NCBI RefSeq assembly: GCF_902168435.1
Contig: NZ_LR656178.1
Location: forward strand, 57,783 to 121,782
Direction of reading: 5' to 3'
DNA length: 64,000 nucleotides
Source of the DNA: Bacillus marasmi
GTDB lineage: Bacteria; Bacillota; Bacilli; Bacillales; Cytobacillaceae
Shown here piece after piece: positions 8,464 to 16,568 of the stretch. The position numbers and the translations under genes are program-made. The number at the start of each line of letters is the position of its first letter. The first letter of the stretch is position 1. The notes under the pieces are model-generated. The model had not been told where the DNA came from and made no database searches. It saw only the letters and a list, made by a program, of their open reading frames with translations.

Positions 8464-8496
8464 TTGTTGATTAGAAAAGAAATCGGAGGGAATTAT

Positions 8497-10416
8497 ATGC
8501 TTGCTGAGGCAAAAACGATTGAGCGGCCAGTAAATATTGAAGCACCACTCTTTGAAAAATTTAAACCACATGTTGAATTATTTGCTGCTTTATTCAGTGG
8601 AATCCTTATTATTGCAGGCTGGATTCTTATGAAATACGAGTTGCAAACTGCTGCAATTATCATTTATATTGCCTCTTATGTCATCGGGGGGTACTCGAAG
8701 GCTAAAGAAGGCATTGAAGACACTATTGCCAACAAAGAACTTAATGTTGAAATGCTGATGATACTTGCAGCACTTGGTTCTGCATTCATAGGATATTGGA
8801 ACGAAGGAGCAATACTGATATTCATTTTTGCATTAAGTGGGGCACTCGAAACCTATACAATGAATAAAAGTCAGAAGGAAATTTCAGCCTTAATGGATCT
8901 ACAGCCAGAAGCAGCGGTTCGTATCATCGATGGTGTTGAGGAAATGGTTCCAATTAAACATTTATGTGTAGGTGACAAAATCTTAATTAAGCCTGGTGAA
9001 AGGGTACCGACTGATGGAAGAATTATTGAAGGGCAAACGAACCTAGATGAGGCAGCCATAACTGGAGAATCAATGCCTGTTAGCAAAACGATTACTGATG
9101 AGGTTTTTGCAGGCACGGTGAATCTTCGAGGAACAATTATCATTGAAATGACAAAGCCAAGCGGTGAAACTTTATTTCAAAAAATCATCACGCTCGTTCA
9201 GTCTGCTCAAAGTGAAAAATCTCCTTCACAGCAGTTTATTGAGCAATTTGAAGGTAAGTATGTAAAAACAGTGTTAATTGCTGTTGGTCTGATGATGTTT
9301 GTGCCACATTATGCTTTGGATTGGAGCTGGACAGAAACCATCTATCGGGCAATGATTTTATTGGTAGTTGCTTCACCATGTGCTCTTGTTGCAGCGATTA
9401 TGCCTGCAACCTTATCTGCAATTTCTAATGGGGCGCGGCACGGAATTTTATTTAAGGGGGGCGTTCATTTAGAAAATCTCGGTAATCTTCAAGCAATAGC
9501 TTTTGATAAAACAGGGACATTGACGAGGGGTAAACCCGAGGTGGCAGACGTGGTAGTACGCCAGGATTTAAGCTTAGATCAGTTTTTATTACATGTGGCC
9601 TCAATAGAAAAGTATTCAACTCACCCTCTTGCAACTGCAATAGTCCGTTTTGCAAATCAAAATCATCAAAGAGTACTATTAAAACCTGAATACATGGAGG
9701 ACCTTGCCGGTTATGGTGTGCAAGCAACAATAGATAATGTTCACTGGAAGGTGGGTAAGGCTGATTTTGTAGGACGCGAGGAAGCTGAACAATTTCAGAA
9801 TAGTATTGCATTAACGCTTGCCCAACAGGGAAAAACCATCGTTTATGCAAGAGATGATAAGGGTATTGCCGGTCTAATTACCTTGTCGGATTGTGTACGG
9901 GATGAAGCACTACAAGCAATCCGTTCTTTAAAAGCTGAAGGCATTCATACGGTCATGCTAACGGGCGATAGTAACAAAACGGCGACAGCCATAGCAGAAC
10001 AAGCTGGAATTGATCATTTCATATCCGAATGTTTACCTGAAACGAAGGTAGAGGAAATGAAAAAGCTAAAAAGTGACTATCGTACAGTTGCGATGGTTGG
10101 GGATGGAATTAATGATGCTCCTGCTCTAGCTACGGCTACGGTTGGTATTGCGATGGGAGAAGGTACAGATGTCGCGCTAGAAACTGCTGATGTTGTGCTA
10201 ATGAAAAATGACCTTCCAAAAATTGCGGAAGCTGTAAAGCTTTCGAAACGGATGAATATGATCATCAAACAAAATGTAATTTTTTCGATTGCTGTCATCA
10301 TGTTGCTAATAATATCTAATTTTTTACAATCTCTTGCACTTCCATTTGGGGTACTCGGACATGAGGGCAGTACGATATTAGTCATATTGAATGGATTAAG
10401 GCTTTTACGTTCCTAA
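8497..10416 (+). CDS. pfeT: P1B4-type metal-transporting ATPase (PfeT/ZosA-like iron exporter)
   Basis: 639 residues. The P-type ATPase core is complete: TGES actuator loop, phosphorylated Asp in DKTGT (D337), and GDGINDAP hinge. The membrane metal site is SPC (residues 293-295) and the last helix carries HEGST (H622), the pair that marks subgroup P1B4. There is no N-terminal metal-binding domain. In B. subtilis the related PfeT (formerly ZosA) exports ferrous iron and is PerR/Fur-controlled, so the upstream Fur box fits iron efflux; zinc or cobalt remain possible. Start chosen at ATG 8497 (CGGAGGG 7 bases upstream). Terminator follows at 10423. Confidence 0.88.
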   Translation: MLAEAKTIERPVNIEAPLFEKFKPHVELFAALFSGILIIAGWILMKYELQTAAIIIYIASYVIGGYSKAKEGIEDTIANKELNVEMLMILAALGSAFIGYWNEGAILIFIFALSGALETYTMNKSQKEISALMDLQPEAAVRIIDGVEEMVPIKHLCVGDKILIKPGERVPTDGRIIEGQTNLDEAAITGESMPVSKTITDEVFAGTVNLRGTIIIEMTKPSGETLFQKIITLVQSAQSEKSPSQQFIEQFEGKYVKTVLIAVGLMMFVPHYALDWSWTETIYRAMILLVVASPCALVAAIMPATLSAISNGARHGILFKGGVHLENLGNLQAIAFDKTGTLTRGKPEVADVVVRQDLSLDQFLLHVASIEKYSTHPLATAIVRFANQNHQRVLLKPEYMEDLAGYGVQATIDNVHWKVGKADFVGREEAEQFQNSIALTLAQQGKTIVYARDDKGIAGLITLSDCVRDEALQAIRSLKAEGIHTVMLTGDSNKTATAIAEQAGIDHFISECLPETKVEEMKKLKSDYRTVAMVGDGINDAPALATATVGIAMGEGTDVALETADVVLMKNDLPKIAEAVKLSKRMNMIIKQNVIFSIAVIMLLIISNFLQSLALPFGVLGHEGSTILVILNGLRLLRS

Positions 10417-13370: not shown

Positions 13371-13552
13371 GAAATTCACCTCCGGAAACACAATTAACCC
13401 ATCATCATTATAACATTTTACGATTTGGAAAAATTCGAAATTTTTTCGTCAAAAAATAATAATGAGGATAATAAGCTGCTTTGTACATTAAAACTAAAGT
13501 TTTGGAAATGCTATTGGAACGAAGTGGAATATGAAATTGAGGGAGGAATAAC

Positions 13553-14086
13553 ATGGAGGCGTCTTTAAAAATAGGTGATGCTGCGCCTAATTTTACTTTA
13601 CCCGCAACCAAAAAAGAGAAGATTTCACTCTCTGATTATTATGGAAGAAAGAATGTAGTTGTAGCGTTTTATGGAATGGATTTTACACCAGGCTGAATCA
13701 AGGAAATTGCCTCTTGGAAAGAGGATTACAAGAAGTTTGAACAAGCGAATGCAGAAATTTTAGCCATTAGTGTTGATCATATTCACTCACACCGTGTCTT
13801 TGAAGCAAGTATGGGTACATTGCCATATCCGCTCCTATCTGATTGGCATAAAGAAACCGTTAAAAGTTACAGTGTATTCAACGCTAAGGGGGAAACCGCT
13901 GTTCGTTCCGTGTTTGTCATAAATCAAGAAGGCATATTAACTTATCAAAATACTTCTTTTAAAGCGGATAACCTGCAGCATTATCAGGCAGTATTTGATG
14001 AATTGGAAAAATTGAATGATAAACCAAAATCAAATATATGGATGAATCAAGAAACTACCTCTCAACCTAATGAATACTTAAATTAA
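13553..14086 (+). CDS. candidate selenoprotein peroxiredoxin (in-frame UGA at peroxidatic residue 48)
   Basis: 177 residues of AhpC/TSA (BCP/PrxU-like) peroxiredoxin when the TGA at 13694-13696 is read through. [19 protein letters not shown], then FYGMDFTPG, then UGA, then [14 protein letters not shown]. The UGA stands exactly where family members have the peroxidatic Cys of the TPGC motif. The frame is otherwise intact to the C-terminus ([15 protein letters not shown]), with no second stop or frameshift and no other Cys. GGGAGGAATAAC precedes the ATG. A stem-loop at 13710-13724 fits a bacterial SECIS. Sec-containing peroxiredoxins are known in Firmicutes. The alternative is a pseudogene made by a single TGC/TGT-to-TGA change. 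Confidence 0.65.
13710..13724 (+). promoter_or_regulatory. candidate bacterial SECIS stem-loop
   Basis: CCTCTT (13710-13715) pairs perfectly with AAGAGG (13719-13724) across a GGA loop. There are 19 bases between the UGA and the loop, and the loop begins with G. Published bacterial SECIS models ask for a small apical loop with G in the first two positions at roughly this distance. It is inside the reading frame, as bacterial elements are. Confidence 0.55.
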
Positions 14087-14094
14087 TATAAGTC

Positions 14095-14135
14095 TAATAA
14101 AAATACCTTGCATACTTTGCAAGGTATTTTTATTA
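14095..14135. terminator. bidirectional rho-independent terminator
   Basis: An 18-bp perfect inverted repeat (14095-14112 and 14118-14135) around ACCTTGCA/TGCAAGGT with AT-rich outer arms on both sides. It separates the peroxiredoxin gene from the convergent coat operon. Confidence 0.9.
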
Positions 14136-14157
14136 GACAAATCATTTTAAATGATCA

Positions 14158-15428: not shown

Positions 15429-16568
15429 ATGAAAGCTGTGACCTATCAAGGGATAAAAGATGTTGCTGTAAAAGAAGTACATGACCCAACGATTCAAAAA
15501 GCAGATGATATGATTGTAAAAATCACAAGTTCAGCGATTTGTGGTTCTGATTTGCATTTAATACATGGTATGATCCCGAACACACCAGAGGATTACGTAA
15601 TTGGCCATGAGCCAATGGGAATTGTTGAAGAGGTAGGTCCTGAGGTGACGAAGGTGAAAAAGGGTGATAGAGTTATCATTCCATTTAATGTTAGCTGTGG
15701 GCAATGCTGGTATTGCCAGCACGATTTAACGAGTCAATGTGATACCTCCAATCCGCACGGTGAGATGGGCGGATTTTTTGGTTATTCAGAAACGACTGGA
15801 GGTTATCCTGGTGGGCAGGCAGAATATTTACGAGTGCCATACGGGAATTTTACTCCCTTTAAGATTCCAGAAAATTGTGAAGTGGAAGATGAAAAACTAG
15901 TCTTATTGTCTGATGCCGCACCAACTGCATATTGGTCGGTTGAAAACGCTGGTGTTACACAAGGTTCTACGGTCATTATCCTTGGTTGTGGTCCAGTAGG
16001 ACTGTTGGCACAAAAATTTGCGTGGTTTAAAGGTGCGAAACGTGTAATTGCCGTTGATTACATCGATTATCGACTTGAGCACGCAAAACGGACGAACAAT
16101 GTGGAAATTGTTAATTTTGAAAAGGAAGAAAATGTTGGCAACTATTTGAAGGAAATCACCCAAGGCGGTGCTGATGTCGTTATTGATTGTGTTGGTATGG
16201 ATGGGAAAATGAGTCCTCTTGAGTTTTTGGCCACTGGTCTTAAATTACATGGGGGATCAATGGGAGCAATTGTGACGGCAACCCAGGCAGTACGTAAGGG
16301 CGGAATGATTCAAATAACAGGTGTTTATGGAATGAGATATAACGGTTTTCCTTTAGGCGATATATTTTCGAGGAATGTAAATATTAGAACTGGGCAAGCT
16401 CCCGTTATACCTTATATGCCATACCTTTATGATGTGTTCTCCAAAGGGACAATTGATCCCAGTGATATTATCACCCACATGATTCCATTAGATGAAGCGA
16501 AACGCGGCTATGAGGTGTTTGATACGAAAACCGATGGCTGCATAAAGGTCATCTTGAAACCACATTGA
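15429..16568 (+). CDS. adhB: zinc-dependent alcohol dehydrogenase AdhB
   Basis: 379 residues, medium-chain dehydrogenase/reductase. Catalytic zinc site: AICGSDLH and [12 protein letters not shown]. Structural zinc site: [15 protein letters not shown] (four Cys). Rossmann motif GCGPVGL. The sequence runs closely parallel to B. subtilis AdhB, including [20 protein letters not shown], and belongs to the glutathione-independent formaldehyde dehydrogenase-like branch. Substrate in vivo is unknown. Its place behind yraG-yraF is conserved in B. subtilis and suggests expression in the sporulating mother cell. I start at ATG 15429 after TTTGGAGGAC. Confidence 0.88.

Follow-up and report, generated by a model that had tools for sequence, protein, structure and literature searches.

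A putative selenocysteine peroxiredoxin with an in-frame UGA at its peroxidatic position in Bacillus marasmi

The gene and its surroundings

The window, i.e., the whole 64,000-nucleotide stretch of Bacillus marasmi DNA that was analysed, carries a predicted selenocysteine (Sec) peroxiredoxin gene with the following features:

13540..13552, plus strand: ribosome-binding site AGGGAGGA and spacer, read from the sequence
13553..14086, plus strand: predicted Sec peroxiredoxin gene, AhpC/TSA family, 177 aa (frame reading and PF00578 match)
13694..13696, plus strand: UGA codon 48, predicted Sec at the peroxidatic position (TGA of relatives, 2ywn alignment, invariant columns)
13710..13724, plus strand: putative bSECIS hairpin, in which 13710-13715 pair with 13719-13724 around the loop GGA at 13716-13718 (frozen codons, compensatory pairs, bSECIS model)
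14092..14138, no strand assigned: bidirectional terminator-like hairpin of 20 pairs with a 7-nt loop, right after the stop

The frame opens with ATG at 13553, has AGGGAGGA immediately 5' of it and runs through 177 codons to a TAA stop (14084-14086). Its only internal stop was TGA at 13694-13696 (codon 48, context DFTPG-U-IKEIA), and the number of Cys codons was zero. The original prediction had described a peroxiredoxin frame broken only by TGA at codon 48 (FTPG-U-IKE), with neither another stop nor a Cys, and re-reading returned the same frame. The protein matched Pfam PF00578 at 118.1 bits (gathering cut-off 26).

The terminator-like hairpin suggests that the transcript ends there, and the gene appears to stand alone: its neighbours encode two Coat_F proteins and, upstream on the opposite strand, a 127-aa protein. 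A promoter scan returned 5 hits against 4.0 expected from shuffles, and none of them was taken as a promoter. Elsewhere in the window, 8464-10413 encodes a P-type ATPase (E1-E2_ATPase) with an SPC motif seen by eye, probably a metal-ion pump. When the window was screened for another UGA gene, by requiring an open frame before and after the codon as well as a stem, only two sites passed: 13694 and one on the minus strand at 15736, which sits opposite a dehydrogenase gene and was rejected.

Conservation of the UGA codon and of the hairpin behind it

Six search peptides, none covering codon 48, retrieved 44 relatives from named genomes (titled Bacillus sp., Neobacillus, Mesobacillus, Cytobacillus, Rossellomorea and others). 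TGA occupied codon 48 in 44/44 of them and Cys in 0/44; the TGC or TGT codon that the original prediction had named as the result that would speak against it was likewise found in none. Because all 44 relatives carry TGA at that codon, it is, judged by this comparison, neither chance nor a sequencing error. One relative, L044 from Neobacillus sp. SuZ13, had its frame broken after about codon 104, being either a pseudogene or an assembly error; for its broken frame it was omitted from profile A1, which comprised the window protein and the other 43 loci (44 rows).

Substitution patterns were alike on the two sides of the UGA. Between the window gene and L002, dN and dS were 0.11 and 2.1 after the UGA and 0.07 and 3.6 before it, with dS in the window pairs near saturation and undefined in 6/8 pairs after the UGA and 3/8 before; a closer pair, L027 and L029, gave dN/dS values of 0.020/0.77 after and 0.029/0.46 before. 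By these estimates, purifying selection is acting on the frame past the UGA as on the frame ahead of it.

In 193 genomes of the family, where the best candidates of each genome (at most 19, E up to 1e-25) were scored with A1, 51 matches exceeded 200 bits; they came from 50 genomes, and each had exactly one TGA. The next score, 126.7 bits, marked the start of a different Sec peroxiredoxin group (17/193 genomes, one TGA each), and stop-free matches began at 99.8 bits, with one 92.7-bit TGA match among them. In 398 genomes of the class (at most the best nine candidates per genome, threshold 1e-32), 29 matches in 28 genomes passed, 29/29 with one TGA: the window's own, three whose scores place them with it (L100-L102) and 25 of the other group. 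In 398 genomes of the phylum (again at most nine, threshold 1e-30), 12 matches passed: the window's own, four others with TGA and seven stop-free; all except the window's own scored 117.5 bits or less, and one phylum match, L128, had a TAG besides its TGA. Among the matches listed for the 193 family, 398 class and 398 phylum genomes, there was no Cys orthologue of the subfamily. The three genome sets (family, class and phylum) partly overlap, and the genomes of the 44 loci may share species with some of those in them.

The other Sec group (L103-L127; 25/398 class genomes) reads WTPV-U in 25/25 members and differs in downstream sequence and hairpin; among the listed matches of the family-set search, none in the window's own genome belonged to it. 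A midpoint-rooted tree of 51 rows was built from the window protein, 16/44 loci, L100-L102, 10/25 loci of this other group, 10/11 phylum loci, 7/9 other matches of the window's genome and four Prx2 copies. The subfamily formed one clade of 21 rows, 21 of them Sec (support 98/95), including L128, which sits on a very long branch and whose placement is unsure.

Past the UGA lies the hairpin CCTCTT-GGA-AAGAGG, with six pairs, beginning 13 nt past the UGA and with 19 nt from UGA to loop. Passages of PMC13188914 give a bSECIS model with a loop of 3-9 nt, G in its first two positions, a stem of 4-16 bp and 16-37 nt from UGA to loop; the window hairpin (loop GGA, 6 bp, 19 nt) agrees with the model as given there. 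Its codons were frozen across the window and 43 loci: Ser was TCT in 44/44, Lys AAA in 44/44 and Glu GAG in 42/42 Glu rows, and 0/46 other well conserved degenerate columns of the same 44 rows used a single codon. Pairing was scored in alignment A2 (40 sequences, 34 distinct), which held 36/44 loci, the window and L100-L102 and left aside the near copies L005, L010, L017, L021, L026, L027, L029 and L032. Across it, 99.5% of stem cells paired, and sliding the stem partners lowered this to 65.7-68.6%. Double-sided changes occurred in 3/6 stem pairs, a level reached in 0/500 shuffles; this covariation consists of four cells in two divergent sequences, L101 and L102, and with partners slid by +2 the covariation score was 0.094 versus 0.113 for the true pairing. 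Further pair types in the stem were not above shuffles (116/500 as high), L011 disrupts the lowest stem pair, and the 50-nt hairpin region showed no excess fold stability over shuffles (z -0.14). A comparable stem-loop geometry was common to four UGA candidates of the window's genome versus 29 of the 2639 window TGAs (both strands; at least 5 perfect pairs, three of them G-C), the peroxiredoxin gene being among the 29. Taken from these alignments, the hairpin after the UGA is under selection and has bSECIS form.

The surroundings of the window gene were kept only in L002 among the 44 loci, several of which have short flanks, and single neighbour genes recurred in L040 and L042. Among the flanks of the 44 loci, no partner gene was seen travelling with the Sec peroxiredoxin: the most recurrent flanking genes occurred in 12, 11 and 9 of them, and by visual inspection these resemble genes for ABC exporters and iron-siderophore uptake.

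Decoding, catalysis and electron donors

All parts of a Sec machinery were found in the window's genome: i) selA (478.9 bits); ii) selB (361.5 bits, cut-off 242); iii) tRNA-Sec (62.2 bits, Rfam gathering cut-off 47; called tRNA-SeC with anticodon tca by ARAGORN); and iv) selD, which has an in-frame UGA of its own (TIGR00476, 326.7 bits, cut-off 125) and lies on the same stretch as selA. These genes are on contigs C33, C29, C13 and C33 respectively and the window is on C43 of the same assembly (contamination 3.26). Their absence was the other result that the original prediction had held to be decisive against it. In the family set, selA was present in 172/193 genomes and in 50/50 of those with the Sec peroxiredoxin (P 0.0012, relatedness of the genomes ignored).

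Other candidate selenoprotein genes were seen in the same genome. An FdhA gene (L142, G000:C35:88224-90248) has its UGA in the context NRT-U-HAPS and, past it, a hairpin whose loop is GGUCU, and a further FdhA-family match (C37:109126-109875) has one TGA. Between selA and selD lies a small Rdx-family (SelW-like) protein gene (L001, 3001-3234, minus strand; CMM-U-NYAP; PF10262 78.2 bits, cut-off 22.6) with a bSECIS-like hairpin. A second, AhpC-like Sec peroxiredoxin is encoded at L049 (1354-1929, minus strand, G000:C29; FTFV-U-QTEL), with relatives that follow the first Sec peroxiredoxin downstream, at ~0.2 kb in L023, L031 and L032 and at ~1.4 kb in L033. Since five COX1-family proteins exceed the cut-off, the organism likely respires aerobically.

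The machinery genes and the TGA in every relative back the proposal of the original prediction that this UGA is read as Sec, and on such genomic grounds insertion of Sec at codon 48 seems to us close to certain. A true stop, ending a pseudogene or a 47-residue fragment, would agree with the standard code, with the 91-aa ATG frame that persists downstream of the UGA and with the frame of L044, broken farther down; it is nevertheless extremely improbable, given the same TGA in 44/44 genomes, purifying selection on both sides of it and a window gene with no other stop, where decay would have scattered them. Hardly more credible is decoding of the UGA as a residue other than Sec, be it Trp, the product of near-cognate readthrough or Cys charged on tRNA-Sec. 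UGA readthrough and insertion of Cys by the Sec machinery at low selenium are known elsewhere, but Trp would abolish the catalytic residue, and both the Sec machinery of the genome and the selected hairpin directly past the UGA argue against such a reading.

Returning to Sec at codon 48, the position aligns with the Cys of the solved peroxiredoxin 2ywn. Thr45, residue 48 and Arg118 were invariant in A1 and are presumably the peroxidatic set of peroxiredoxins; the Pro of PxxxTxxC/U was replaced by Gly in 36/44 rows, the window protein included, and was Pro in the remainder. That 13553-14086 encodes a Sec peroxiredoxin, whatever its electron donor, is very probable, and its having peroxidase activity is likely. 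On established biology, SelB with Sec-tRNA would bind the hairpin and decode the UGA, and the selenolate, aided by Thr45 and Arg118, would attack peroxides. A role as peroxide sensor or relay, or as a selenium-responsive switch, rather than as a detoxifying peroxidase would be compatible with the nine further peroxiredoxin-family matches of the genome, which could handle bulk detoxification, and with surroundings kept only in L002. We consider such a role unlikely, as no partner gene was seen travelling with the gene and the catalytic Thr and Arg are invariant.

Cys was lacking in the window protein and in 34/44 relatives (the broken frame of L044 counted). Of the ten relatives with Cys, L011, L030 and L034 carry scattered single ones, and the others belong to a side lineage: a Cys at +103 from Sec was common to L037-L043 and the more distant L100, and one at +72 was found in L038-L043 and L100, L037 having only that at +103. 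From its position in the alignment, this lineage may hold a resolving Cys, with +72 and +103 a possible pair, so that the subfamily as a whole cannot be called Cys-free. Because the distant L101 and L102 are also without Cys, lack of Cys may be a derived state or one gained twice.

Since the window protein has no Cys, its oxidised Sec would need an outside thiol, and resolution by such a thiol is probable. The selenenic acid would be resolved most likely by bacillithiol with bacilliredoxin or by thioredoxin, making the window enzyme a 1-Sec counterpart of the 1-Cys peroxiredoxins. The genome encodes BshC and two BrxA/B-type proteins; these, and the analogy with AhpE, would make bacillithiol with bacilliredoxin the natural donor, and we give an even chance to its being the main one, a choice that draws on the absence of Cys and on pathway genes common in bacilli. 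Direct reduction of the selenenic acid by thioredoxin is nearly as likely: the NCBIfam models with the highest scores, none of which reaches its cut-off, carry "thioredoxin-dependent" in their names, but the window protein has no Cys for the usual thioredoxin-reduced disulfide. Tentatively, the Bacilli clade, found only in Sec form and Cys-free in its main branch, might be an obligate 1-Sec peroxidase, glutathione-peroxidase-like, that draws its electrons from bacillithiol.

Place among known peroxiredoxins

Sec peroxiredoxins have long been known, as passages of PMC1794560, PMC5029168, PMC9312934 and PMC13188914 attest. A 2006 tally gives 3 selenoproteins, from 3 families, for Bacillales in passages that do not name them (PMC1794560), and passages of a 2016 survey (PMC5029168) report that Sec is used by aerobes as well as by anaerobes. 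Among the matches listed in a literature search whose sources lay mostly outside subscription journals, no Sec peroxiredoxin in Bacillaceae could be recognised. As far as the searches show, what is new is a subfamily spread among Bacillaceae that was encountered solely in Sec form and is mostly Cys-free: a peroxide enzyme present in 50/193 family genomes, where 172/193 carry selA. Standard-code gene calling would be expected to stop or split such genes at the UGA, and an enzyme without Cys lends itself to clean tests of how a selenenic acid is reduced in bacteria that make bacillithiol.

The window protein matched 14 NCBIfam families, in each case below the cut-off. Like the Sec peroxiredoxins of reviews (TxxU) and PrxU of Eubacterium acidaminophilum (NF040737), it belongs to the AhpC/TSA family and has a predicted peroxidatic Sec with UGA and bSECIS (as described in passages of PMC13188914 and PMC9312934), and all 44 rows of A1 matched NF040737 (best E 3.9e-26). 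However, it scored 72.3 bits versus a cut-off of 270, so that it falls outside PrxU in the NCBIfam definition, the type that the original prediction had mentioned; moreover, the PrxU model has 233 positions and the window protein 177 residues without Cys, and PrxU comes from a strict anaerobe, by the title of a reference, whereas the window's genome has COX1-family oxidases. By these comparisons the window protein is a member, itself without a resolving Cys, of a subfamily separate from and shorter than NCBIfam PrxU. BCP/PrxQ, represented by a copy in the same genome (L047), resembles the window protein in length and in the TPGC/TPGU motif, but it has a second Cys nearby (TPGCTTEAC) that is missing in the window protein; membership was rejected on this lack of a nearby resolving Cys and on the score against NF006960 (70.5 bits, cut-off 140).

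AhpE is a 1-Cys peroxiredoxin reduced by mycoredoxin/mycothiol, according to passages of PMC4360819; it has a single redox residue and needs an external thiol, as proposed for the window enzyme, but uses Cys in place of Sec. Profile A1 scored 2ywn at 107.4 bits, 5zte at 101.7, 2cx3 at 100.5 and the AhpE chains at 94.5; by these scores, with AhpE below 2ywn, the subfamily does not stand out as particularly close to AhpE, which had no row in the tree. The second Sec peroxiredoxin of the genome, L049, scored 163.6 bits against NF040737 (cut-off 270) and fell among AhpC-like rows of the tree, with a long-branch warning. It shares the predicted peroxidatic Sec and the bSECIS geometry of the window gene but has 191 residues and, unlike the Cys-free window protein, keeps an N-terminal Cys. 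Its C-terminal resolving Cys has been lost (GVPANW versus GLCPANW in the Cys paralogue L048), which, in a Sec peroxiredoxin unrelated to the first, might point to a repeated shift to resolution by an outside thiol after the gain of Sec.
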